A DNA stretch of 64,000 bases from Paraflavisolibacter caeni (GTDB taxonomy: Bacteria > Bacteroidota > Bacteroidia > Chitinophagales > Chitinophagaceae). The notes under the pieces were generated by a model, which was not told where the DNA came from, made no database searches, and worked only from the letters and a program-made list of their open reading frames with translations. Shown piece by piece: positions 45,335 through 58,564 of the stretch; position 1 is the first letter of the stretch; every line of letters starts with the position of its first letter. The stretch lies in contig NZ_JAOTIF010000005.1 in assembly GCF_025628885.1 (NCBI RefSeq), positions 1 through 64,000 on the forward strand. Reading direction: 5' to 3'. Both the position numbers and the translations under genes were made by a program.

Positions 45335-46008
45335 TTGTGTAATTTTGGTTAGCTGTTGAAGGTAAGTTAATAATATCTTTTGAAGGGTTTTAATTCCGCG
45401 CAAACACATAAGTTCTCCGGGCGGCCGTTAGGCGACCGAACCCGCACCAGAAGCCATTGCTACTGTTCCTAGAGTACTTGTAACCCATTCAGTCAAGTAT
45501 ACAGTTATACCGGCATTTAGCATATCATCTGTATCATTAACTACAGTCAAATTCTTCAGAGGTAAATTTGTAAAGTGAAATAAGGAAGAAAGAGAAAATA
45601 AGAATTGTCCGACTAAAAAAATAACCCCTTGAATTTCAAGAGGTTATTTCCTAGTCTGTGATCCCGCTGGGATCAGAATATGATCACAGAAACCACTACT
45701 GTATTATATTTCAAAAAACCAGTTCAAAAAGGTAACCGAATTGGTAACCGGATAAATTGACTGACTTTATTGGAATTTATAAGAGCTTTAATGCGGTGCA
45801 AATATACAAGATAAAAGCATAAATAACAACAAATTGATTCAAAAATTATTGAAGCGAAATAATAATCAGGAGCCATGCTTTTACCAATTAGTGCACATTA
45901 TAGTGACCATTACATTTAGTTTATTTTGAACTGAATTAGGCTTGTTAATACTCTATCTATACTTTATCTTGGCTTTATCCATGCTACACTCCTATTCTAT
46001 CCTGGCAT
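45335..46008. other. Intergenic stretch with a terminator and a tRNA-end-like palindrome
   Basis: About 670 bases without a supported gene. It holds the terminator at 45619-45648 and, at 45659-45675, the palindrome TGATCCC-GCT-GGGATCA, which resembles a tRNA acceptor end or an integrase attachment core. The direct pair AACCGAATTGGTAACCGG follows near 45740. It marks the left edge of the accessory region. Confidence 0.4.
45619..45648 (-). terminator. Intrinsic terminator
   Basis: The arms AAATAACCCCTTGAA and TTCAAGAGGTTATTT pair with one mismatch, and on the minus strand they are followed by a run of seven T. It would end minus-strand transcripts coming from the small gene at 46009. Confidence 0.75.
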
Positions 46009-46215
46009 TTACCGGGTTAGGAATTGGCGGACCCTTTCTTCGTTCAGGTTTGTGTGTTCGCAAAATTCGTAGATGGTGATAAGGTCGCCGGGCTTTTTGT
46101 TGTAACGGCGGCGGATCTGGGCAATGATCTTTCGGGCAGTGCGCTCCTTCCTGCCTGTTATATTGCTGATGTCTTTGGCATAGATGACTATGCGAGTTGG
46201 TACAATTTCCTGCAT
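46009..46215 (-). CDS. Small basic helical protein (68 residues), possible DNA-binding
   Basis: The peptide begins MQEIVPTRIVIYAKDISNIT and contains GRKERTARKIIAQIRRRYNK, then LITIYEFCEHTNLNEERVRQ. The charge and two helix-turn-helix-like blocks suggest nucleic-acid binding. I have seen similar short proteins in Chitinophagaceae as hypothetical genes, often next to a 250-residue protein like the one divergent here. No named family. A strong terminator lies downstream, which supports it being a real transcribed gene. Confidence 0.65.
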   Translation of the reverse strand: MQEIVPTRIVIYAKDISNITGRKERTARKIIAQIRRRYNKKPGDLITIYEFCEHTNLNEERVRQFLTR

Positions 46216-46368
46216 AATGCTGCAATAGCGGTACCGCTACTTTGGGCTTCTAATATGGTGTAATAATCTTGTGGTGAGGAACTTAAAATTAATCATTATT
46301 TATCATTTCTTGTTGGGCTTGCAATTGCTTCCTCCCTGCCTGGCAAGACTTTTTAAAAACTTTATCCT

Positions 46369-47124
46369 ATGGCTAAACAAATGGGTATCATCAAACTCCA
46401 GGGAACGATTGGTGATATCACTTTTTACAAATCCCAGGACGGTTACCTGGCTCGCGAGAAAGGCGGCGTAGACGGTGACCGCATTGCAACCGATTCTGCC
46501 TTTGAAAGAACCCGGGAAAACGGAGCTGAATTCGGTAGGGCCGGTAAGGCTGCCAAACTCCTCCGGAATTCCATCCAGGGCTTACTGCAAAACGTGGCTG
46601 ATAGCAGGCTGGCCAGCCGTCTGACTACTGAAATGGTCAAAGTGGTGAAGGCGGATGACACCAGTACACGCGGTATGCGAAATGTGCTGGATGGTGAATT
46701 AGAGCTGTTACAGGGCTTTGAATTCAACATCAATGGGAAGTTAACTACAGCTCTTTATGCGCCTTATGATGCTGTTATCAACAGGGCTACAGGTCAGTTT
46801 ACCGTATCGGTAGCACCTTTCATTCCTGCTCATATGATTGCAGCTCCCGTAGGTGCCACGCATTTCAGGATTAATTCCGGGGCAGCCGAAGTTGACTTTG
46901 AAGGAGGCAAGTTTGTAGTGGACACCAAGCAAACTGCTATTCTGCCGCTGGACAACATGCCAACAGCAGCCCTCAGCCTGGAATCTACACTTACTGCAGC
47001 GAGTGTGCATCCGTTGTTCCAGGTGCTGGGCATTGAATTCCTGCAACAGGTGAATGGTGAATATTATCCACTGAAGAATGGCGCCTACAATGCCCTGGCT
47101 TTGATCAAAGTTGAGGGTGTATAA
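46369..47124 (+). CDS. Conserved hypothetical protein of the orphan cassette (251 residues)
   Basis: A 251-residue protein without signal peptide. The N-terminal MAKQMGIIKLQGTIGDITFY and KSQDGYLAREKGGVDGDRI look like two beta-hairpins, then comes a helical segment (RTRENGAEFGRAGKAAKLLR, LQNVADSRLASRLTTEMVKV), and the last 120 residues are beta-rich. I recall near relatives as a widespread Bacteroidota hypothetical family. Its layout, alongside two small holin-like membrane proteins, recalls phage-derived structural genes. Function is unknown. It is followed by a strong terminator at 47148, so it is probably made on its own transcript in larger amounts than the genes beyond. Confidence 0.7.
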   Translation: MAKQMGIIKLQGTIGDITFYKSQDGYLAREKGGVDGDRIATDSAFERTRENGAEFGRAGKAAKLLRNSIQGLLQNVADSRLASRLTTEMVKVVKADDTSTRGMRNVLDGELELLQGFEFNINGKLTTALYAPYDAVINRATGQFTVSVAPFIPAHMIAAPVGATHFRINSGAAEVDFEGGKFVVDTKQTAILPLDNMPTAALSLESTLTAASVHPLFQVLGIEFLQQVNGEYYPLKNGAYNALALIKVEGV

Positions 47125-47147
47125 GATATCATCCTGTGAAACACCAT

Positions 47148-47190
47148 GGAAACCGGAGAGAGGCATGGCAAGCGCTCTGGTTTCCTTTTT
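47148..47190 (+). terminator. Intrinsic terminator after the 251-residue gene
   Basis: Arms GGAAACCGGAG and CTCTGGTTTCC (one G-T pair) enclose a 16-base loop and are followed by a run of five T. Confidence 0.75.
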
Positions 47191-47225
47191 CTAAATCCAT
47201 TTTCCTTACTTCTTAATTCAGAGTT

Positions 47226-47435
47226 ATGAAACAAATCATGAGCAGGATCCAGGCCCCTACTCCACCCTTCTTTGTAAAGCTGCGGAACATTGGTTTGGCA
47301 CTTACAGCGGTAAGCATTGCCCTGACCACTTCACCATTGGCCCTGCCGTTAGTGGTGGTCAAAATAGCCGGATACCTGGCCATTGCCGGATCTGTGGCTT
47401 CTGCGGTGAGTCAGGCAGCTGTTGAAGGAGAATAA
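47226..47435 (+). CDS. Small membrane protein of the orphan cassette (69 residues)
   Basis: The peptide MKQIMSRIQAPTPPFFVKLR is followed by two hydrophobic helices, IGLALTAVSIALTTSPLALP and VVVKIAGYLAIAGSVASAV, with a short end QAAVEGE. A basic N-terminus with two helices gives it a holin-like layout. The end of the gene contains GAAGGAG, which serves as ribosome binding site for the next gene, so the two are translationally linked. Function is unknown. Confidence 0.65.
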   Translation: MKQIMSRIQAPTPPFFVKLRNIGLALTAVSIALTTSPLALPLVVVKIAGYLAIAGSVASAVSQAAVEGE

Positions 47436-47439
47436 AGTT

Positions 47440-47622
47440 ATGGAGCACGTGTTCGACAATACCACTAAGGCAGGCACAGCAGCAGGTACGATGCTTACCA
47501 TCCTGGTGAACATCAGTAGCGAGGATCTGCTTAAGACCGCAGTCCTGGCGGCTGTGGGTGCGGCCGTGAGTTTTGTGGTAACTTTAGTGTTGAAAGCAGT
47601 GGTTAGGTATTTCCATAAATGA
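47440..47622 (+). CDS. Small membrane protein of the orphan cassette (60 residues)
   Basis: The start at 47440 (MEHVFDNTTKAGTAAGTML) is chosen because AAGGAG lies nine bases upstream; the frame extends six codons further. One or two hydrophobic helices follow (TMLTILVNIS, TAVLAAVGAAVSFVVTLVLK) and a basic end VVRYFHK. Its size and layout again resemble a holin-like or anchor protein. It is in a tight pair with the previous gene and is closed by the terminator at 47662. No family is named. Confidence 0.65.
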   Translation: MEHVFDNTTKAGTAAGTMLTILVNISSEDLLKTAVLAAVGAAVSFVVTLVLKAVVRYFHK

Positions 47623-47661
47623 ATGTTCTCTATAAGTAGTGGTGACTTTAGAGAAAATAAG

Positions 47662-47679
47662 AAGGGCCGGTTGGCCCTT
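47662..47679. terminator. Bidirectional terminator between convergent genes
   Basis: AAGGGCC and GGCCCTT form a perfect 7-base stem around a GGTT loop, followed by TTCTTCATTT on the + strand. It separates the small membrane pair from the DUF6876 gene. Confidence 0.7.
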
Positions 47680-47687
47680 TCTTCATT

Positions 47688-48038
47688 TCAGTATTCTTTA
47701 GGTAGCATCAGCGTACCATTAACCAGCCAAAGGGTGGCGAGATCGTAAGTAAAATCACTGTAAAGAATGTACTGATAGGCAATGCGGTTGTGGCTTCCAT
47801 CGGTAGCAACGATCGTAAACCGGTTTTCATTGATCCGTTTTAGTTCCCACACCTGGAAGCGGTGATTTTTTATCTGTCTTTTATACTGGTGAGAGATGAT
47901 CACATCAATGAACCAATAGGCGGAGCAGGTATCTACCAGGTGTTTTACTCCTGATGTTAAAAAGATCCTGGAAGGTTGATTATAGAAGAAGCGTTCTGAG
48001 CCATTGCTGTAGCCGAAGTGGTCGTTTGCGTTAGTCAT
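47688..48038 (-). CDS. DUF6876-family protein
   Basis: The start is placed at the internal Met (29th residue of the longest frame), giving MTNANDHFGYSNGSERFFYN and 116 residues. It continues with SRIFLTSGVKHLVDTCSAYW, FIDVIISHQYKRQIKNHRFQ and VWELKRINENRFTIVATDGS, which fit the DUF6876 pattern known from mobile-element-linked genes of Bacteroidota. It is not membrane-bound. Role unknown; such genes are commonly found with plasmid or phage-like cargo, so they mark accessory DNA. Confidence 0.65.
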   Translation of the reverse strand: MTNANDHFGYSNGSERFFYNQPSRIFLTSGVKHLVDTCSAYWFIDVIISHQYKRQIKNHRFQVWELKRINENRFTIVATDGSHNRIAYQYILYSDFTYDLATLWLVNGTLMLPKEY

Positions 48039-48615
48039 GACATTTACATTTGTAGGTTTTAAAAAGTCATTTTCCCAAAAGAAAAAAGGGAAAAAAAGAA
48101 AGCCCCGGAGAAGCAAGGGCAATGCTGCAGACCAAATTTTTTGGCTATAAAAGAGAGCTGTTAGAATCTTCGAGAGAAATGTAGGAACGCCGCAGCGCAG
48201 GCATCTGTGTTTATGGCCTTAAAAAATTTGGTAGCAGCTAAAAGCCTGATGTAGCAAGGCTTGCCCTTGCTACCTTGTTTTGCTTTTTTTCTTTTTCTTT
48301 TGGGAAGGACAGACAGCAAGAAAAATGCTCTTGGGAAACGAGGAATGCAATTGCGTATTCTTGTGTTCAGATTAGCACTATGGATGGCTCATTCAGATGG
48401 GGCAACAAAGAATGCAAAATAGAAAAGCATTGAAAGACATTGATTAGCATGAAGTTATATAGATTTTTAAAAAATCTCATGACAGGATGAGCTTGATTCG
48501 TAAATTAGTAGTGTAAGCAGCAATGAGTGAGAGTCCCCGAAATGAGAAAGTGTAAATCATACGTTTTTACAATGTTTGCTTATAAATGGGGCTTCGATTG
48601 CAGCTAGCAGTTTTC
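48039..48615. other. Intergenic stretch with inverted repeats before the nuclease-ATPase gene
   Basis: About 580 bases with no supported gene. Inverted copies of CCAAATTTTTT / AAAAAATTTGG lie near 48133 and 48228. A nine-base hairpin GTAGCAAGG / CCTTGCTAC (48251-48273) is followed by a T-rich run and could terminate + strand transcripts. The rest is AT-rich with many short stops. Confidence 0.45.
48251..48273 (+). terminator. Candidate terminator hairpin
   Basis: Nine-base perfect stem GTAGCAAGG / CCTTGCTAC with a five-base loop, followed by CTTGTTTTGCTTTTTTTCT. Confidence 0.45.
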
Positions 48616-48623
48616 TAGATTTG
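48616..48623 (+). promoter_or_regulatory. Bacteroidota-type -7 promoter element
   Basis: TAGATTTG matches TAnnTTTG exactly, with a TTG 15 bases upstream as a possible -33 part (spacing shorter than typical). It would start transcription near 48630, so the coding start at 48626 could not be used and the ATG at 48701 is favoured. Confidence 0.45.
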
Positions 48624-48700
48624 TTATGGCAACTCAGGTTTTAAGAATATCATTGTCATTAAAATCCAGAACTAGCCTACGAGTTAAATATAGATTGTTA

Positions 48701-51652
48701 ATGAACGAAGAAGAAATAAGAGGTAAGCTATTATTACCCTTTTTAAATGACCTTGGTTTTGATGTTTCCGAGATTTCGTTAGAAAAGTCATTCTCGATTA
48801 AACTTGGAAAGTCTAGACATACTATTAATGGAAGATCAGATATTTTATGTAAAAGAAATGGGAACAATCTCTTCATTGTTGAATTAAAAAATGATTCAAT
48901 TTCCATTGAACAAGAAGACATCGAGCAAGGAATCTCATATGCAAGACTACTTACCGACAATATTGCTCCATTTACTATTATTACAAACGGAAAAACAACA
49001 AGGATTTTCGATTCAATCTCTCGAAAAGAATTAACTGGAACCAAGATTTCTGACCAGTCAAGCTATTGGCAAAATGATTGTACACTATCCACAGATATTG
49101 ATCTACGAATAAGATATGAAGCTCTAAAGAAATTTGTTTCATTTTCATCAGAAAACTTAAAGAAATTTTGCGAAGATCAAGTTCGGGATAGAATGGGTCC
49201 GATAATAGGCAATATCAATGAACCTTATGCAAAATTTGTAAAAGAACTTCATGTTCAAAGACAAGGCTTACAAAATGCATTTAATACTTTTACCAGTTCA
49301 GAAGCTTCAGTATTTGGAATAGTTGGATCGGCAGGGGTTGGCAAAACAAATGCAATGTGCTCATTGGCTCTTCAACAATTAGAAAATGAATTTGTTTTTT
49401 TCTATAATGCAGCTATAATCAACAAATCTCCTTTACAGCATATCGCTCAAGATTTAAATGTTGTTTTTTCCAGCAAAAGTGAAAGTAATAGCGTTTTAAA
49501 AAAGCTTGATGAATTAGGTAGTTTTCTTAATAGAAATATTCTAATCTTCATCGATGCAATAGATGAAAGTAGAGATTCTCATTTAGCCATTGAATTAAGC
49601 GAAATAGCTCTTTCGATAAGAACTATGAGGAGAGTCAAGATATGCATTAGCTGTAAAGCAAATATTTGGAACAATATCTTAAAGAAAAACGGCACTCCCA
49701 CTCATTTATTTGAGGAGCTAAGTAGATTTCATGAAAAGATCTCTAGCGCTGACAATTGCCCAGGTTTTCTATTAGAAGATTTCAGTGATGAAGAGATCAA
49801 CTCAATATTACCATTATACAAAGAGGCTTTTGGTTTTCAAGGCCAAATTTCAAAGTCAATATCGGAAGCGCTAAGAAATGGCTTCTTCTTAAGAATATTC
49901 AGTGAAGTGTATAGTCAAAGAGAGGTTCCTCAAGAAATAAATGATAAAGACTTAATTAAAAGATATCTCAAACAATCCCTTGAAAAGACTGACATAGGAT
50001 TTCAAGTTGGTTTGCGGATTCTGTCAAAAATCGGAGAGATTTTAATAAATCAAAAATACGCCTCCTGGGAAACTTTCCATGACGAAGGAATGGAAGTGGA
50101 AAGCTTAATAGAAAAATTAGAGTTTTCCATAGATGAAACTATACCTGAAGATTTATTCGCAAGAAACATACTTATTAGGTCTAATAAAAATGATTCATAC
50201 AATATATCATTCTACTATTCTAAAATCCGTGATTATATCATCTGTTTTCATTCTTATAAACTTTATAAACTTAGTGAAGATGAATTTTATGACACACTCG
50301 AGAGATTCTATGAAAATTACATCGGGCAAAGTGCAATCTCTTTCTATCTAGAAAACGCAAGTGATGGACACAAGAGAACATTAATCAAATTCAAGAGGGA
50401 TAAATCGTTAAAATATGTGAATAGCTATAATTCTTATCTGGAACAGCATTTCAAAAGTTTTAAGGAAAAATTCGATCCCCAAACCAAAGGTGATATAGGA
50501 ATATTCTTGCCAGAAGATTTATTGCAGAAAGACGGTTACGCACTTTTCCCTTTAGACTCTAATTCGACGAATAAAGTTCAATTTGCAAAATTGGGAAACA
50601 TATTTTCAAATTTAGATAATGATCTTTTTTTTGAAAAAGGTGTAAACACAGTTTACGGAAGTAACCTATCATTATTGATCGAAGATCAAAGCAAAACTGT
50701 TCAGAAAAACATATTTAAACAGCTTAAAGAAATAATTGAAAAAGGCAGACTAAGTGTATATAATTCCGATATTCTTTTGTTGGAACAAGTTTCGACCATT
50801 CTTTATTATTATTTCAAAGAACTCGGATATAGCTTTACAATAAAGGATTATTACCTGCCAAGATTTAACTTAATCTATCCAATCGATTTAAAGAATCTAA
50901 GAGACCAACTGTATAAATTCTGTGTTAGTGAATATTACAAAAGGCAGTATCATTTAGATCCAAAAGTAAAAGCTGATAAGATTGATGCAGCTTTAAGAGG
51001 AAATTTTGATGTTCCGAGATTAAATATCATAGGAGATTTCCCTCCGATGGAGGAACTATTTAAACTTGTAGAGATCCTATTAAGTAAAGGCTATAGCGAA
51101 CTTGCAGAACATCACTTGCCTTGCCCAGATATATCGATTAGTGAAACAAAAGCATTTTGCGAAAGAGAAAGAAACCTAGATATACCGCAAATTCGAACAC
51201 GGCAATTTAGTAAAGGACAAGCTAAATTATACATAGAAACCTTTTTGAAGCATTTAGATTCTTGTTACAAAGAATTTGTTGAATATTGTTTTCCAACCTT
51301 TAAAGACAGGTTTCCATTTTTTATGACAATTCCACATGAGTACTTTTTTTACATGAAGGATGAAGATGTTCGTAAGTGGGGGATGTTAGGTTATCGCTCC
51401 TCTAAAGATGGAGAAGTGAAAATAAATTTTAAGAAATTAACTCAAACAGATGAACCCTTTACAAGAGGAGAAACAAACGTTTTGAGAGGATTCTCGCTTG
51501 ACCAAATTCTTCATAATGATTACTATAATTTAATCAAAACAATAGACAAGATAAACACTCCCAAAGTTGACGAGTTTTGTGTTTTAAGGAATTGGGTTTA
51601 TAGTTTTCTTAAATCGGATATGGAAACACTTTTTAAAGAAAATAAAGAATAA
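48701..51652 (+). CDS. PD-(D/E)XK nuclease fused to a NACHT/STAND ATPase, probable antiphage protein
   Basis: A 983-residue protein from the chosen ATG (MNEEEIRGKLLLPFLNDLGF); an ATG 25 codons upstream is less likely given the -7 promoter match at 48616. Residues 1-125 resemble the HsdR N-terminal nuclease fold, with GRSDILC (Asp47) and FIVELKN (Glu61, Lys63) as the PD-(D/E)XK set. Around 209-216 is the Walker A GSAGVGKT, and ILIFIDAIDE at about 280-289 is Walker B, typical of NACHT/STAND signal ATPases. The remaining 550 or so residues form an unrecognised C-terminal region, presumably a sensor. The gene is strikingly AT-rich. Other nuclease-STAND fusions (Avs) defend against phages; assignment to that class is inference. 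Confidence 0.8.
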   Translation: MNEEEIRGKLLLPFLNDLGFDVSEISLEKSFSIKLGKSRHTINGRSDILCKRNGNNLFIVELKNDSISIEQEDIEQGISYARLLTDNIAPFTIITNGKTTRIFDSISRKELTGTKISDQSSYWQNDCTLSTDIDLRIRYEALKKFVSFSSENLKKFCEDQVRDRMGPIIGNINEPYAKFVKELHVQRQGLQNAFNTFTSSEASVFGIVGSAGVGKTNAMCSLALQQLENEFVFFYNAAIINKSPLQHIAQDLNVVFSSKSESNSVLKKLDELGSFLNRNILIFIDAIDESRDSHLAIELSEIALSIRTMRRVKICISCKANIWNNILKKNGTPTHLFEELSRFHEKISSADNCPGFLLEDFSDEEINSILPLYKEAFGFQGQISKSISEALRNGFFLRIFSEVYSQREVPQEINDKDLIKRYLKQSLEKTDIGFQVGLRILSKIGEILINQKYASWETFHDEGMEVESLIEKLEFSIDETIPEDLFARNILIRSNKNDSYNISFYYSKIRDYIICFHSYKLYKLSEDEFYDTLERFYENYIGQSAISFYLENASDGHKRTLIKFKRDKSLKYVNSYNSYLEQHFKSFKEKFDPQTKGDIGIFLPEDLLQKDGYALFPLDSNSTNKVQFAKLGNIFSNLDNDLFFEKGVNTVYGSNLSLLIEDQSKTVQKNIFKQLKEIIEKGRLSVYNSDILLLEQVSTILYYYFKELGYSFTIKDYYLPRFNLIYPIDLKNLRDQLYKFCVSEYYKRQYHLDPKVKADKIDAALRGNFDVPRLNIIGDFPPMEELFKLVEILLSKGYSELAEHHLPCPDISISETKAFCERERNLDIPQIRTRQFSKGQAKLYIETFLKHLDSCYKEFVEYCFPTFKDRFPFFMTIPHEYFFYMKDEDVRKWGMLGYRSSKDGEVKINFKKLTQTDEPFTRGETNVLRGFSLDQILHNDYYNLIKTIDKINTPKVDEFCVLRNWVYSFLKSDMETLFKENKE

Positions 51653-51916
51653 ATTTCCGTTCCTAAGGTCTTTATTCTCTAATTGTTATAATTGTTTTCT
51701 TAGAGGTTGCCATATACTTACCTCGTGCTATTGCTGGCGGCACTTAGCTATAATGCAAAAGTTTTTAAGGAGTGGTATTACCAATCGCAGAGGTAGCAAT
51801 CACAACGCAAGCTTGCACACGACAGACCCTACTGCGATACGATTATTTTCTCAAAGAGGCACTTTTAGTTACACATTTAAGTTAGCGTAATCACAGATAA
51901 AGTGAATGCTGATAAA
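51653..51916. other. Intergenic tail after the nuclease-ATPase gene
   Basis: About 260 bases without a supported gene. An eight-base hairpin AGAATAAA / TTTATTCT (51643-51678) directly follows the stop codon and may end the transcript. A phrase GGCGGCACTTAG near 51734 returns at 52147, linking this stretch with the GC-rich region. Confidence 0.4.
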
Positions 51917-51997
51917 CGAGTAGACAGCCCTGAAACTTGTGGGTAGTAGGGAGCGCCTCGCACACCACTGTACGTACGGGCCTCGTATAAAGCGGTT
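51917..51997 (-). mobile_element. Relic of a group II intron 3' end (domain V-VI-like)
   Basis: On the minus strand the sequence has the shape of a group II intron end: a short hairpin GAACCGCTTTATACGAGGCC with partner CCGTACGTACAGTGG, then GTGTGCGAGGCGCTCCCT, a second hairpin, and an ending CTACTCG. I remember near-identical endings after reverse-transcriptase genes of this phylum. No reverse transcriptase is seen upstream, so only the 3' end remains. A related copy lies at 57560-57625. Identification is by memory and shape. Confidence 0.45.
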
Positions 51998-52750
51998 CAT
52001 TAAGTGCAGGAGCCACTTTAAAGTAATATTCCGAAAGGCTACATATTCTCTTTTCCTCAATCCTACTCACTTAGGCGGAAATCTCCGATTCAAATGCCGT
52101 AATAAGGTTTTTCTCTTTAATGAAGCCCGGGGCGTGCCGAATACTTGCGGCACTTAGGGGGCGAGCCGTTAAAGCCGCTGGAGGAAGCCCGTTGTGCGGA
52201 GGGATTTGCAGCATGGCAGGGCTGAACGGAAGCGGCTGCGAGCGCTGCCGGCTGGGGCGCACAGGTAATGACCGTCAGGGAATGATGGGCGCACAGAGAC
52301 GGGGCGGAACGTGGCATGTTTGTGTTTTGGATATGTGGTGTGGAAACATAAGGTAGGGTACTGCGCCAGTGAAGCCCAGGAACGCAGCCGGCAGCAGCGC
52401 AGGCGAGCACAAATGTGGGCAGCGGGTGGACTGAACCCTGCTGAAGTGAATGACCGACGGAGGGGAGCGGAATGGAACCCAGTGAGCCTTTGTGCTGATT
52501 GCTTTGCGGAAAGGTATGTGCAGGCCTTGGGGTATTGCTTGTGTGTTAAGGTTTGGAGCGTTGCATTTGTGTTTTGGTAAGGACTGCCATGCCTTGGAGC
52601 AAAATGTAGGGGGCGAACGGGTGGAATGGAGCGGAACGCAGGAGGGAATGAACGAAGATGGGTGAAGGACACAGGAGCTGCCCGAACGAAGGCAGAGGGA
52701 GCTGCAAACAGCATGACAAACTGCGGAGCGATAGCGGAGCACCCAGAGGG

Positions 52751-52811
52751 CCTTGCAGCGGCGCCAATACCATACAAGAGACGTATAGACCTTATTGGCG
52801 CTGCTGCAAGG
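52751..52811. repeat. 19-base inverted repeat with nested inner stem
   Basis: The arms 52751-52769 and 52793-52811 pair at 18 of 19 positions (one G/A difference), and ATAC/GTAT (52772-52775, 52783-52786) can pair inside. Confidence 0.85.
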
Positions 52812-52942
52812 GTTTGGCACGCCTGCTTGCCGACCCTGCCTGAGAGAGACCTTTTTACCTGGAACAGCCGACGACAGGAGGATGAGGGCACGCAAGTCGA
52901 ATATTAGAGGCTTACAAGCAAGATCAAGAGGAAGCGCTGGTA

Positions 52943-53024
52943 AGCCCCGCCAGGACCGGGCTAGTGGTGCTGCGTATTGTGGGTGCAGTGAGATGCTGCA
53001 CCTGCTGCCCGGCTTGGCGGGGCT
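52943..53024. repeat. Multi-stem inverted repeat
   Basis: Three nested stems: AGCCCCGCC / GGCGGGGCT (outer), CCGGGC / GCCCGG (middle) and GGTGCAG / CTGCACC (inner). Together they fold the 82 bases into one long branched or interrupted hairpin. Confidence 0.8.
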
Positions 53025-53671
53025 GTGCGGGGTACGATTGATATATACTGCGGTTGTTCGAAATAGAGAGTGAATGAAGCGTTGGCAGAAAGCAGCTTTG
53101 TGATGAACGAATGAGCATAGTGAAAGAGAGAATGAACAAGGCTGCTGTGCGGAGGGAAAAGAAGCGAGGTTTTGTGTCAGGAGTGAGTTGGCAGAAAACT
53201 TTATGGCTGCTTTGTGGATCTTGTGCGGTTAGAGCAGTGATAAAGTTTTTGTGTGCGGTGGGTAGATCAAAAGACTCTAAATTCAGGAACTGCTAAATAG
53301 AATTACAGAAAGTTGAACGGAGCGTCGCAACAGAAGATCAACTGAACTTACTTGTGTTGGGTTCATCCTAATAATCAATACACTATTTCTTTAATACCAT
53401 ACCTTGTTTTAAGTCCTCCCATTTATAGGATAAGGTAAACTAGGAAAAATGGATTTTATTAGTATTATTTACATCTGATGATGCAACTATATTTTTTCTG
53501 ATGCTGCTTTATGCATATAAAGCCTAGTAATAAGGCTGATACAGTTTATTTATTTAGGGAAACTTTTAGAATATAAAATTGTTCTTTCATTCTGAGGTAA
53601 GTTTGAAAAAAAATTATAGCAGTTTGATTCTATTATATATTAATGAATAAAGCTGCCTCAGATTATTCCTG

Positions 53672-53775
53672 ATGAAACAATCTCAATCCTCTCTCCGAAC
53701 GTTGATGTTTGTTGGTACCGGCTCTGATGTAGGGAAAAGCATCATTACAGCCTGATTTTGCAGGGGCGACTTATA
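53672..53775 (+). pseudogene. 5' fragment of a cobyric acid synthase (cobQ) gene
   Basis: From the ATG at 53672 the frame reads MKQSQSSLRTLMFVGTGSDV and GKSIITA, then a stop where glycine is expected, then FCR. This is the ATP-binding start of cobyric acid synthase (MFVGTGSDVGKSxxxAGFCRIF). After some 33 codons the similarity ends. Only the first part is left, with a nonsense change, so it is a dead fragment of the cobalamin pathway gene. Confidence 0.75.
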
Positions 53776-53844
53776 TAAATGTTTCAACATCAAATATGCG
53801 AACTGTTTGTACCTTTAAGGCGAACACATATAACCTATAATAAC

Positions 53845-54180
53845 ATGTATAAGAATAGCGAGGGTTGGGAATAATCGATTTACAGGTCTTCCGGGGCGAA
53901 ATAGCACCCTGCGACCATGTAGTTCAGATTTATGAGAATGGCAAGATATTCTTAGACTCTTTAGAAGGATTTATCGGCTCTGGTTTTATTGCAGGTGATA
54001 GCATTATCATTATTGCAACAAAAGAACATCTTACAGCTTTGGAAGTACGAATTAAAAAACAAGGCTTCAACCTTGATTCTTTATCCCTTACTAACCGATA
54101 CATTGGATTAGATGCAGAAGACACACTTTCCAAGTTTATGGTAAATGGCTGTCCTACAAGAGCAGCCATTTTATTACCAT
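53845..54180 (+). pseudogene. Truncated MEDS-domain (sensory) gene
   Basis: The MEDS pattern is clear: APCDHVVQIYENGKIFLDSL, then FIGSGFIAGDSIIIIATKEH and LDAEDTLSKFMVNGCP. The natural ATG at 53845 (MYKNSEGWE) runs into a stop, and one extra T in the GGGTTGGGA run would join it to the frame of the domain. Near 54160 the similarity ends and the frame continues as antisense of the lactonase gene. MEDS proteins of about 200 residues usually sense small molecules next to regulators. Here both ends are damaged. Confidence 0.7.
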
Positions 54181-54191
54181 TGAGTTTAACT

Positions 54192-55310
54192 TTAATTAGC
54201 CACAAGACCACTGGTGCCTATTGGCAAACCTCCTTCTTCTTCAATCAGTTTTAAACTGCCATCGTTATGTACCGAAAATCCCTGAATAGTATGGCTCCCG
54301 GAAGTTAATATGTATAGGAAATTTGAATGGGAGCTCAAAGCTGCATCTATAGGCCCTTTGCCTGTTTGAGCAGTCATGCCATCGCTATTCAGCAACTCAG
54401 CATCGCCAGTTTGGCTGATGCTATAACCGCTAATGGTGTTGCTTCCAGCGTTGGTAACATAAGCATATTTTTGGTTACCAGTCAATACCGCCCAGCAGGC
54501 TGCGGTTTCTGTAGTGGATTCAGGTCCGTCTATCAAACTTAGATTTGCGTTGCCATCTACATGATATACTGATAAAGCGCTGGCATCGGGAACACTGCCT
54601 GCTGCTTCAGATACAAAAATCTTTCCTTCCTGGCCTACAGCAAATCCAAAAGGAGTGGGAGCTGCTGAGGCAAAGTTATGCACAGCTATTGGTTCACCGG
54701 ATGAATTCAATTCCCAGCTACGGATATTATTAGTTGCTTTTTCGGTTACAATTAAAGCAGTACCGTTATGGGAAAATGAAATTTGTGCAGGGTCGGCTGC
54801 ATTACTGCTCAAAGGCTTGATGGAGTTAGATATAGGTGATAAGGTGCCATTTGAATGAAGATAGAACCCTGCGATATTGCCATCACCTCCTGCATTCAAT
54901 ACATATACCCAGTACCCAAAATTGGTTATGCTGATGGGTTTAGTTCCACCGGAGGCTATCAAGTCGGTTACAGTAAGACTCTTATCATAAACTTTAAGCA
55001 CAGAAATATCATTACTGCCTGAGTTTACGGCAAAAAGCCACTTGTGATTTTCGCTAAGGAACAAAGCCCCTTGGCTGCCCAATCCACTACCAGTTCCTTG
55101 GCCTCCTGTCGGTGTTGTACCGGTAAGTGATAGTAAGCCGCTGGCGTTTCGTTTGTACTGAATAATACTGTTCCCTTTAACTTGATTGTTTAGTGTATAG
55201 ACATTACCGTTATTAAATAAATCGTCAAATTCATCCTTACCATCTTTATGACATGACGAAAGAAGTGTGGCAACAGCAAGCACAGCAACAATTGCTCTGG
55301 TGTTTTTCAT
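54192..55310 (-). CDS. Lactonase-family beta-propeller lipoprotein
   Basis: A 372-residue protein from the internal Met (38th residue of the longest frame), which gives MKNTRAIVAVLAVATLLSSC with a lipobox Cys at 20. Seven-bladed propeller repeats of the lactonase / 3-carboxymuconate cyclase type follow, such as WLFAVNSGSNDISVLKV, YWVYVLNAGGDGNIAGFYL, TEKATNNIRSWELNSSG, YAYVTNAGSNTISGYSI and LYILTSGSHTIQGFSV. It is likely anchored to a membrane facing the periplasm. The enzyme activity is uncertain; many relatives are plain binding propellers. It overlaps the broken MEDS gene at its end and seems intact. Confidence 0.8.
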   Translation of the reverse strand: MKNTRAIVAVLAVATLLSSCHKDGKDEFDDLFNNGNVYTLNNQVKGNSIIQYKRNASGLLSLTGTTPTGGQGTGSGLGSQGALFLSENHKWLFAVNSGSNDISVLKVYDKSLTVTDLIASGGTKPISITNFGYWVYVLNAGGDGNIAGFYLHSNGTLSPISNSIKPLSSNAADPAQISFSHNGTALIVTEKATNNIRSWELNSSGEPIAVHNFASAAPTPFGFAVGQEGKIFVSEAAGSVPDASALSVYHVDGNANLSLIDGPESTTETAACWAVLTGNQKYAYVTNAGSNTISGYSISQTGDAELLNSDGMTAQTGKGPIDAALSSHSNFLYILTSGSHTIQGFSVHNDGSLKLIEEEGGLPIGTSGLVAN

Positions 55311-55581
55311 ACTACAGGTTTTAAAGATTAAAAAAGATAGGCAGCTAAGGATGTGGCACAGTATAGAGCAGTATAGATAGGGTAAGCGAATATTGTTCAG
55401 TGAAGGTGCAACCTTGTACAATGTTGCAAAATTAATTTTTCTATTTCAGTTGCCAGTCGGCTTTGTCGCATTTATTAAAATAGAAACAATAAAGGAAATT
55501 ACTGAGCATGAATTTATGCTGCTCATGAGCATAAAGATTGGTATGTAGTTTTCAATGGAATTGGAGCTGTTGTTTCTTTTT

Positions 55582-55897
55582 CATGTCGTGATGAATGTGG
55601 TAAACATCAAACAGAACATTGCCAGGAATGTGCAAGAGCTTGCAGGAGCTGTATGGAAGAGTGCAGCAGGATGGCAGCCTAGTAAATAGACTTCCAATAT
55701 CCTTTTTTTTAAGGTGAACACTTGACGTTTAAAAGAATAACGTCTAAGTGAAGTATGACGGGTTCATATCTTCGTTCCGCCAGTGACAGTTCTTTTGAAA
55801 GCTGCTGATTCAAATGGCGGAATGGGGATATGAATTCTAATCAACTTCTAATTCTGAAAACAGTAAAGTGGCACAATCACAGCACTGATAAATAAAT
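55582..55897 (+). repeat. About 316-bp repeat, copy 1
   Basis: It begins inside a DUF326 gene tail and continues through two hairpins to GATAAATAA. It matches 57767-58084 along its length with scattered changes and small indels. The first hairpin (55719-55750, CACTTGACGTT / AACGTCTAAGTG) and the second, 72-base hairpin (55763-55834) both keep pairing in the other copy. Confidence 0.85.
55585..55683 (+). pseudogene. C-terminal fragment of a DUF326 four-helix cysteine-rich protein
   Basis: The frame reads CRDECGKHQTEHCQECARAC and RSCMEECSRMAA, then a stop at 55681-55683. This is the last helix pair of a DUF326 copper-binding-type four-helix protein (regular Cys-x3-Cys spacing). There is no start and no N-terminal half. 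It is nearly the same as the end of the gene at 57628. Confidence 0.75.
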
Positions 55898-55906
55898 AGT
55901 GAGAAG

Positions 55907-56062
55907 ATGGCACAACAAGCTGCAGAAGAAATCAGTAATATCATTTGTAATAAAGTTATTCCAGAGTTTGAAGGGTTAAAGACTACAACTGAATTATCTG
56001 CGCTTTGGAGACAAGGTTCATGTCCTGGACTGACAGAGCGCCAGCGGAAAGAATACCTCTAG
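55907..56062 (+). CDS. Small unrecognised ORF (51 residues)
   Basis: ATG at 55907 follows GAGAAG closely. The peptide starts MAQQAAEEISNIICNKVIPE and continues FEGLKTTTELSALWRQ, ending ERQRKEYL. It is charged and predicted helical. It may be a small protein or the remains of a larger one; similar sequence continues past the stop (LAEQS). No family is recognised. Confidence 0.3.
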   Translation: MAQQAAEEISNIICNKVIPEFEGLKTTTELSALWRQGSCPGLTERQRKEYL

Positions 56063-56112
56063 TTATTAGCAGAGCAAAGTACTTAGATTCAGAACAGGGC
56101 ATATAACAATAA

Positions 56113-56220
56113 TATTTGTGAAACGGCTACTCCTGTATTAACTTTCAGCCATAAATTAATAATCAATGGCATGGGTACAATGAAACGGTAGTAACCCAGA
56201 CTTCAGCCGTTTCACAAATA
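56113..56220. repeat. Perfect 16-base inverted repeat upstream of the FAD gene
   Basis: TATTTGTGAAACGGCT (56113-56128) pairs exactly with 56205-56220, with 76 bases between. It stands just before GTTAGGC at 56230, a layout that resembles the folded recombination sites (attC) of integron cassettes. Confidence 0.8.
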
Positions 56221-56228
56221 CTGGTGAT

Positions 56229-57563
56229 CGTTAGGCAACATTTGAGAACGAAAGCGCAGATATGCAAGAATAATTTCATGATTGTAAAATTGTATTGTGA
56301 AAAATCCTTAAGCCATGTACGATGTCATAGTTATTGGTGCCCGCTGTGCCGGTTCACCAACTGCGATGCTGCTTGCACGCAAGGGTTACAAGGTGCTCTT
56401 AGTAGACAAAGTTGCATTTCCGAGTGACACTATCTCAACCCATATCATCTGGCCGCCGGGAGCATCACGGCTGAAGCACTGGGGACTGCTGGACACTATA
56501 CTGTCATCAAACTGCCCGAAAATAAGCAAAGTGACCCTAGACCTTGGTCCATTTGCTTTAACGGGCTCACCCCTTTTCTCTGAAGTTGTGGAGGTGATTG
56601 CACCGAGGCGTACTGTGCTCGATAAAATTTTGGCAGATGCAGCAGTAAATGCCGGCGCAGAACTGCGTGAAAACTGTGTGGTAGAGGAAATTATAATGGA
56701 TGAAAATCGGGTTACGGGCATTCGCTGCCGCAACAAGGGCGGCTCATTAGTCAGGGAGAATGCGCGGATGGTAATTGGTGCAGACGGTAAAAATTCAATT
56801 GTGGCACGGACAGTGGACGCACAGGAGTACAATAGCCGACAGCCACTGACATGCTGGTATTATACTTACTGGAGCGGCATGCCGGTGGAAGATATTGTGT
56901 TATACTCTGTGCCGAACCGGGCTATCGGTGCCATTCCAACGAATGATGGCCTTACCTGCCTTCCTGTGGCATGGCCTGCAAATGAATTTCACGATTACCG
57001 CAGTGACATTGAAGGCAACTACATGAAGACACTAGAACTTAATAAAAGTCTTGCCGAACTGGTACGCCAGGGTAAAAGGGAGGAGCGTTTTTTTGGCATG
57101 GCTGACTTGCGCAACTTCTTTCGTAAATCATCAGGTCCTGGTTGGGCGCTTGTGGGTGATGCAGGCTATCACAAAGACCCTATAACAGCACAAGGCATCA
57201 GCGATGCGATCCATGCAGCCGAAATGCTCACTGATGCACTGGATGCAGGGTTTTCAGGAAAGGAAACGTTGGAGAAAGCGCTGGAGCATTACGAACTGAC
57301 TCGTGATGAAGAGGTAATGCCTATGTATGAATTTACCTGCGATTGGGCAACACTCCAGCCGCCGCCACCTGATATGGAATATCTTTTTACTGCCTTGCGG
57401 GAAAACCAGGTAGAAACTAATCGTTTTATTGGAACTCTCGCTGGAACAGTACCCATTCCTGAATTTTTTTCGCCTGAAAACATACAGCGAATAACCGGTA
57501 CGATGGAAACCGGAAGCAATATTACTTAACATTGATCCTAAACTGATGATAAACGTTGCCTAA
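56229..57563. repeat. Inverted GTTAGGCAAC / GTTGCCTAA boundaries around the FAD gene
   Basis: CGTTAGGCAAC (56229-56239) and GTTGCCTAA (57555-57563) are inverted copies that flank the FAD oxidoreductase gene, 75 bases before its start and 26 bases after its stop. They match the integron core patterns GTTRRRY and RYYYAA(C), with the last base differing on the right. Confidence 0.5.
56315..57529 (+). CDS. FAD-dependent oxidoreductase (FAD_binding_3 / geranylgeranyl-reductase-like)
   Basis: A 404-residue flavoprotein. MYDVIVIGARCAGSPTAMLLA gives the N-terminal FAD Rossmann motif (GxRxAGSxxA in place of GxGxxG, as in this subgroup), MVIGADGKNSIVARTV the DG motif, and WALVGDAGYHKDPITAQGIS and DAIHAAEML the GD motif that holds the FAD ribityl chain. 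The middle is the substrate domain. Relatives hydroxylate or reduce aromatic or isoprenoid compounds. Base composition is richer in GC than the neighbours. It is intact and flanked by inverted repeats, so it may be transferred cargo. Confidence 0.85.
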   Translation: MYDVIVIGARCAGSPTAMLLARKGYKVLLVDKVAFPSDTISTHIIWPPGASRLKHWGLLDTILSSNCPKISKVTLDLGPFALTGSPLFSEVVEVIAPRRTVLDKILADAAVNAGAELRENCVVEEIIMDENRVTGIRCRNKGGSLVRENARMVIGADGKNSIVARTVDAQEYNSRQPLTCWYYTYWSGMPVEDIVLYSVPNRAIGAIPTNDGLTCLPVAWPANEFHDYRSDIEGNYMKTLELNKSLAELVRQGKREERFFGMADLRNFFRKSSGPGWALVGDAGYHKDPITAQGISDAIHAAEMLTDALDAGFSGKETLEKALEHYELTRDEEVMPMYEFTCDWATLQPPPPDMEYLFTALRENQVETNRFIGTLAGTVPIPEFFSPENIQRITGTMETGSNIT

Positions 57564-58113: not shown

Positions 58114-58564
58114 ATGCAAGAAATGTTTAGGAGGTTTGACATACGTACTGAGATCATACTTGCGATTATGCCTGTATCAATGATTATAGCAGTGTTGATC
58201 TTACTGGAAACCTTTAGTAAGCAGCTGTTGCTATTTTCTTCTCTTGTTTCCAGCGCGGTTCTCATCTGCCTGGATCCCAGACACCCTACGAACTCTTTCT
58301 ATTGCCCAAATGTCGGCTGCTGTTATTGGCTATCTGATGTATCTTTTACTGGGACCAGGTTATTTAACAGCTGACACTTCCATGATCATTGCTATTGCTG
58401 TAATGATTGGTGCTAAAGCTATGCATCCTCCTGCCGTTTCCTCTGCCATGATCTTTGCTTTTCAATACACAAAACCTAATACTCTAATGCTGTTTATTTC
58501 AGCGGTTGTACTGATAGTGATTCTGATAGGACTACAAAGGGCGTCACACTGGCTGATCAGGTAA
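58114..58564 (+). pseudogene. HPP-family membrane protein gene with a frameshift
   Basis: The start MQEMFRRFDIRTEIILAIMP and the first helices up to ICLDPRHPTNS read in one frame. The remainder, RTLSIAQMSAAVIGYLMYLL, MIGAKAMHPPAVSSAMIFAF and WLIR, reads in another. The change falls at 58285-58300, between two CGAACT-like words, so a short deletion is likely. The HPP family has four or five helices and is linked to nitrite uptake in some organisms. Intact neighbours of this kind often stand beside DUF326 genes. Confidence 0.8.

Follow-up and report, generated by a model that had tools for sequence, protein, structure and literature searches.

The window analysed here comprises the first 64,000 nucleotides of contig NZ_JAOTIF010000005.1 of Paraflavisolibacter caeni. 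It contains an intact gene on the + strand whose frame is uninterrupted from 48701 to 51652 and whose translation, here termed P0001, has 983 residues. A first-pass annotation had read this gene as a single chain joining a nuclease to an ATPase and had quoted the motifs GRSDILC, FIVELKN, GSAGVGKT and ILIFIDAIDE; the open frame agrees with this reading, and all four motifs are found in P0001. The locus has the following features:

48593..48623, + strand: promoter-like site TTcG-N19-TAGATTTG, near the Bacteroidota −33/−7 consensus, with one mismatch in the −33 box.
48701..51652, + strand: whole gene of P0001, a predicted nuclease-STAND-sensor protein of 983 aa (open frame and full-length orthologues).
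48701..49030, + strand: predicted effector, an HsdR-N-type PD-(D/E)XK nuclease, residues 1–110 with E28, D47, E61, K63, Q76 and Y80 (Pfam and invariant residues).
49031..49234, + strand: presumed linker between two matched domains, residues 111–178, conserved.
49235..49930, + strand: STAND NTPase core, residues 179–410, with Walker A GSAGVGKT (K215) and Walker B FIDAIDE (D285, D288, E289) (PADLOC Avs2 and profile match to 9o4e).
49931..50281, + strand: probable winged-helix-like part of the STAND module, residues 411–527, with a conserved SFYYSKIRDYII segment (judged by position and conservation).
50282..51649, + strand: putative sensor, residues 528–983, without a recognised family (no significant Pfam match, no PDB match).

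An in-frame ATG at 48626 offers an alternative start that would yield 1008 residues. We consider 48701 the likelier start because MNEE is the first possible start in four of the five close orthologues (L002, L006, L007 and L008); the orthologue in L003 starts two residues further upstream. Bacteroidota promoters have the −33/−7 consensus TTTG/TAnnTTTG. When the first box was relaxed to TTYG, the motif occurred once on each strand of the whole window, and the strict TTTG form had no site on the + strand.

The head of P0001 matches the Pfam families HSDR_N_2 (residues 2–105, E=8.4e-11, 42.4 bits compared to a cut-off of 25) and HSDR_N (residues 43–109, E=3.2e-8), and a nuclease family is matched in all seven members of the family that we aligned. 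In the sequence alignment, D47, E61 and K63 stand where the PD-(D/E)XK pattern expects them in all seven members and in all nine heads compared (the members plus L010 and L011); E28, Q76 and Y80 are likewise invariant in the nine heads. We take the Q76xxxY80 pair to agree with an additional motif that marks RecB/HsdR-type nucleases. A profile of the nine heads had no significant match in the PDB (best E=0.81), and the assignment thus rests on Pfam and on the residues. By family score and residues, the head is predicted to be an HsdR-N-type PD-(D/E)XK nuclease, in line with the earlier proposal of an HsdR-like head from the Asp in GRSDILC and the Glu and Lys in FIVELKN.

The central part had been proposed to be a STAND ATPase on the basis of GSAGVGKT and ILIFIDAIDE, and K215, D285, D288 and E289 are indeed identical in all members. 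The sole PADLOC match of P0001 is Avs2 (E=1e-13, residues 179–332), which is matched by 7/7 members (best E=1.8e-15). The remaining PADLOC matches in the family are PDC-M16A in two of the seven (1.2e-4), three matches in single members, one of them to a second Avs2 model, and a type II methyltransferase model in six (best 1.4e-7), which we attribute to the shared nuclease head. Furthermore, a profile of nine NTPase domains had one clear match in the PDB, the Avs2 entry 9o4e with four chains (1.4e-7, profile positions 24–228 of 248), followed by a precorrin methyltransferase (1.3e-3) and AAA+ ATPases (3.8e-3 or worse). The single P0001 sequence had no PDB match up to E=1; two GFP matches of the whole-family profile (E about 0.5) were taken as chance. 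Scores for NACHT (14.9 bits) and nSTAND_NTPase5 (20.2 bits) are below the Pfam cut-offs of 26.7 and 34, respectively, and NCBIfam yields a weak match to EruA only (residues 277–410, 1.7e-4, 19.9 bits compared to a cut-off of 1000). L011 has the Walker A motif GPPQHGKT, but DGWNE in place of the DxxDE of the others. Judged by these comparisons, the NTPase of P0001 is homologous to that of Avs2 and is closest to Avs2 specifically. This is homology of the NTPase and not membership in Avs2, because the head and the C-terminus do not match the Avs2 model. Residues 411–527 had no significant match in the libraries.

The first-pass annotation had ended the protein with a sensor of 550 residues in which no pattern could be named. 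The second half of this description stands: none of the libraries searched, Pfam among them, contains a significant match to the C-terminal ~455 residues, and a profile of residues 529–983 has no PDB match up to E=10. The length is nearer to 455 than to 550 because residues ~411–527 look like a winged helix, with a putative boundary. When all seven members were scanned with Pfam, families outside the nuclease and P-loop types were matched at chance level only: DUF3472 on residues 517–583 of P0001 (0.2), and, in one or two of the remaining members, XLF (0.089), PNGase_A_C (0.14), GATase_7 (0.14) and SRI (0.3). Where P0001 matches PHROGs, it does so in the head and the NTPase. AlphaFold2 models from six sequences (two partial) have low confidence both for the full-length protein (pLDDT 38.5, pTM 0.28) and for residues 529–983 (pLDDT 41.6, pTM 0.32); they suggest a largely helical chain with a few strands close to its end.

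To compare the parts of the protein, we used the mean pairwise identity among six orthologues, with domain borders that we set ourselves. The identity amounts to 0.77 in the nuclease, 0.68 in the NTPase and 0.66 in residues 411–527; along the C-terminus it is 0.64 (528–620), 0.35 (621–660), 0.50 (661–770) and 0.55 (771–983). Thus, only residues 621–983 clearly diverge faster, with 0.35–0.55 compared to 0.77 in the nuclease. A profile of the sensor found 5/395 genomes, which carry the gene itself, two orthologues and two distant relatives that were already known; none of these 395 genomes showed the P0001 sensor swapped onto a different head. L011 (genome G021), which has a related head and NTPase, is absent from the sensor matches, and its C-terminus is therefore probably different.

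P0001 has five full-length orthologues of 982–987 aa with 58–66% identity, in Kaistella haifensis, an Aequorivita bin, Empedobacter brevis and two further genomes of the same class. A sixth full-length relative (L009) from the same phylum has 33% identity by BLASTP (residues 2–975) and 35% in the multiple alignment. Partial copies were found at contig ends of a Chitinophagales bin and of Chryseobacterium. In the family alignment, the ten active-site residues checked (E28, D47, E61, K63, Q76, Y80, K215, D285, D288 and E289) are identical in 7/7 members. Since six full-length relatives keep them, P0001 is a conserved protein and not a chance fusion; chance is excluded by the HSDR_N_2 score together with these relatives.

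The distribution of the family is sporadic and patchy. In the genus, only the genome under study carries the gene (1/18). The phylum sample contains matches in 8/395 genomes at 1e-10, full length in three (the own genome, G084 and G379), and the class sample in 4/395 at 1e-20, the own genome being included in both counts; the two samples overlap in their genomes and are not independent. A profile search of the phylum sample extended the matches to 13/395 at 1e-5, the weakest being a head or an NTPase alone. Of the eight phylum-sample matches, the alignments omit two: L012, whose head is matched weakly (760 aa read), and L013, in which the head is fused to an N6 methyltransferase. Phage records contain no match to P0001, and scans of viral_contigs contain no relative. 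Plasmids have 17 partial matches, none of which covers 80%.

The base composition sets the gene apart from its surroundings. As had been noted before, it is more AT-rich than its neighbours: its GC content is 0.317 (GC3 0.264), compared to 0.399 for the window and 0.375–0.496 for the eight other window genes measured. The genes of six relatives have a GC content of 0.276–0.384, each below its own flanks by 0.002 to 0.121. As all six relatives measured are AT-rich too, low GC is in part a trait of the family and thus weaker evidence of recent transfer. The gene was probably acquired horizontally. The two flanking genes that were searched are each scarce in the genus (2/18 and 4/18 genomes, own included). 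Repeats that could mark the ends of a mobile element at the P0001 gene are short, low-identity pairs only, and the window contains no tRNA.

The region 3' of the gene had been called a gene graveyard. This is true in part, as it includes a GC-rich repeat in which no gene is clear, a truncated MEDS domain and a seemingly split HPP gene; the lactonase, FAD-oxidoreductase and DUF389 genes in the same region are apparently intact. The GC-rich stretch (52130–53270; 0.557 GC in 52001–53000) contains no convincing gene. It has copies with 84–93% identity on two other contigs of its own genome and shorter or weaker pieces elsewhere, and could be a degenerate repeated element. A search of 45500–56500 with Rfam, this stretch included, found nothing at gathering score. 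The MEDS domain (53865–54254) is cut short, with 71 of 161 profile positions and 27.2 bits compared to a cut-off of 29.8, and is probably a gene remnant. The HPP transmembrane protein (58114–58564) appears split over two overlapping frames, the second of which matches TM_HPP with 3.2e-9.

P0001 might itself be a selfish or decaying gene of horizontal origin without a present function in its genome, being isolated, AT-rich and adjacent to partly broken genes. Against such decay, the frame is fully open, the active-site residues are intact and a promoter-like site lies upstream, and we consider this explanation highly improbable.

None of the nine window neighbours scanned with PADLOC has a match, and the link to defence thus comes from the relatives. 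In the loci of relatives, we looked at 18 ORFs from six of the ten loci (L002, L004, L005 and L030 were left out); these were picked by eye and without a background rate, and three had no match. Two of the five close orthologues have a complete known system beside them: GajA and GajB of Gabija lie 4 kb away from the orthologue of Empedobacter (L006), and HamA and HamB of Hachiman lie about 1.2 kb away from that in L029. A PDC-M49A-like ATPase is encoded nearby in L028, and Mrr-catalytic and TIR-like genes lie directly upstream in L003, with weak scores. Among the distant relatives, the one in L031 directly follows a type III R enzyme, which is itself preceded by AbiD, and in L032 DndE/D/C directly adjoin the gene.

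When comparing P0001 to known systems, we find the layout of AVAST proteins, with an N-terminal effector, a central STAND NTPase and a C-terminal part with a presumed sensor role in one chain. Avs2 has the domain order effector-NTPase-sensor. P0001 resembles it (PADLOC PDLC02164, PDB 9o4e) as a single protein with a homologous STAND NTPase in this order; it differs in length (983 compared to 1484 positions in 9o4e or 1504 in the model), and the match is confined to the NTPase. A full-length match to a named Avs type was not found, as the Avs2 model covers residues 179–332 only. Avs4 is an Mrr-STAND/NACHT fusion. P0001 shares with such fusions a head of the PD-(D/E)XK superfamily on a STAND/NACHT ATPase, whereas the nuclease family differs; no Avs4-labelled PADLOC match occurs in the seven members, the presence of an Avs4 model in the library being unconfirmed. 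An Mrr-NACHT fusion is mentioned in PMC1913061. According to PMC12169576, bNACHT25 and bNACHT32 (clade 6) likewise have an N-terminal PD-(D/E)XK DNase with an essential Asp48 (D47 in P0001), a central NTPase and a C-terminal sensing part. The heads of P0001 and bNACHT25 belong to the same superfamily, as compared by that description and not by sequence. The two bNACHT proteins carry an NCH1 domain (PMC12169576); the Pfam scan of the seven members had no NCH1 match, with the NCH1 model in the library unconfirmed. The NTPase of P0001 scores below the Pfam cut-off for NACHT.

The head also resembles the nuclease domain at the N-terminus of HsdR from type I restriction-modification (HSDR_N/HSDR_N_2), which elsewhere is part of DNA-recognising enzymes. 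P0001 could therefore act as a direct restriction-type enzyme, in which the C-terminus would recognise (modified or structured) DNA and the NTPase would power or gate the cutting of DNA that enters the cell; neither a phage protein as ligand nor cell death would be involved. The fusion of the distant head L013 to a methyltransferase and the type II methyltransferase matches would fit such an enzyme. We consider it quite unlikely: P0001 has neither a helicase nor a methyltransferase domain (no superfamily-2 helicase in Pfam; among the other members, one ResIII match at chance level, 0.19), its head is fused to a STAND NTPase in place of a helicase motor, this NTPase is specifically Avs2-like, and no restriction-modification match, such as HsdM or HsdS partners would give, occurs among the nine window neighbours.

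We thus return to the Avs-like logic that the first-pass annotation had recognised, which gains from the HSDR_N_2 head and from the homology of the NTPase to Avs2 (PADLOC in 7/7, 9o4e at 1.4e-7). The same annotation had named the gene a candidate for an undescribed defence system. This goes too far with regard to the principle, as the effector-STAND-sensor arrangement and PD-(D/E)XK-NACHT fusions are described (Avs1–4 and bNACHT25/32) and the NTPase has its homologue in Avs2; the undescribed part may be the P0001 family and its sensor. As far as the libraries searched show, an HsdR-type head with an Avs2-like NTPase and an unrecognised sensor looks like a new combination. It is not described in any title or abstract beginning among the literature matches listed, nor was a defence assay of the family found among them.

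Taken as a candidate, P0001 is quite likely a receptor of the STAND class, encoded by one gene and directed against phages (or mobile elements). It would be kept inactive in resting cells. During an infection, the C-terminal ~455 residues would bind a molecule made by the invader, most likely a conserved phage protein. The Avs2-like NTPase would bind ATP and P0001 would oligomerise, perhaps as a tetramer like the four-chain Avs2 entry. The HsdR-type heads would thereby be brought together and would cut host and phage DNA, so that the infection is stopped at the cost of the cell. Going by the domain anatomy, this action (sensing, oligomerisation, DNA cutting and arrest) should be the same as in Avs1–4 and bNACHT25. 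As stated in PMC12931631, Avs1–4 recognise phage proteins, chiefly those of the packaging machinery, whereupon their nuclease effectors cleave the DNA of both phage and host. For bNACHT25, with its PD-(D/E)XK DNase, NACHT and C-terminal domain, PMC12169576 reports that Asp48 is required for DNA degradation on infection.

The trigger could also be internal. bNACHT25, of like general layout, depends on the host protein DnaJ (PMC12169576), and the sensor of P0001 might similarly watch a host factor, such as a chaperone or another defence system, and fire a death switch when phages disturb that factor. The sporadic occurrence across genera speaks for a portable trigger instead, and the faster divergence of the C-terminus better fits direct contact with changing invaders; we thus regard a host-monitoring switch as unlikely. 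For the preferred receptor of an invader molecule, we tentatively suggest that the C-terminal ~455 residues could have a sensor fold undescribed in STAND immune proteins that reads a phage component unlike those of Avs1–5, which might make the family a separate AVAST-like type of Bacteroidota. To our knowledge, few STAND receptors have been worked out in Bacteroidota. Each such receptor family can reveal one conserved feature of invaders that cells read. A compact one-gene family whose predicted DNase head can be assayed and whose sensor is unassigned leads directly to what may be a new phage pattern, and the conserved head and diverging C-terminus among the orthologues make comparative activation experiments feasible.

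Lastly, we describe further genes that were observed beside relatives of P0001. On a Massilia plasmid (L052, 4965–7533), an HsdR-head/STAND relative ends after 345 aa; it is preceded by a site-specific integrase, and a small HTH gene and an IS3 transposase come after it. Another of the partial plasmid matches is to unannotated pieces in an E. coli megaplasmid, with IS66 genes nearby. Directly 3' of the Empedobacter orthologue, between it and Gabija (L006, 10989–14845), lie genes of 945 and 340 aa, and the product of the former has no PADLOC or Pfam match. In L029 (9820–10893, genome G379), a 357-aa protein encoded between the orthologue and Hachiman matches PDC-M58A (5.2e-13) and has a weak match to a type IV restriction model. 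Upstream of the distant relative in L031 (2–2971, genome G373), a 989-aa protein that runs off the locus matches PD-Lambda-4_A with 7e-25 and is a further large candidate for defence within that island.
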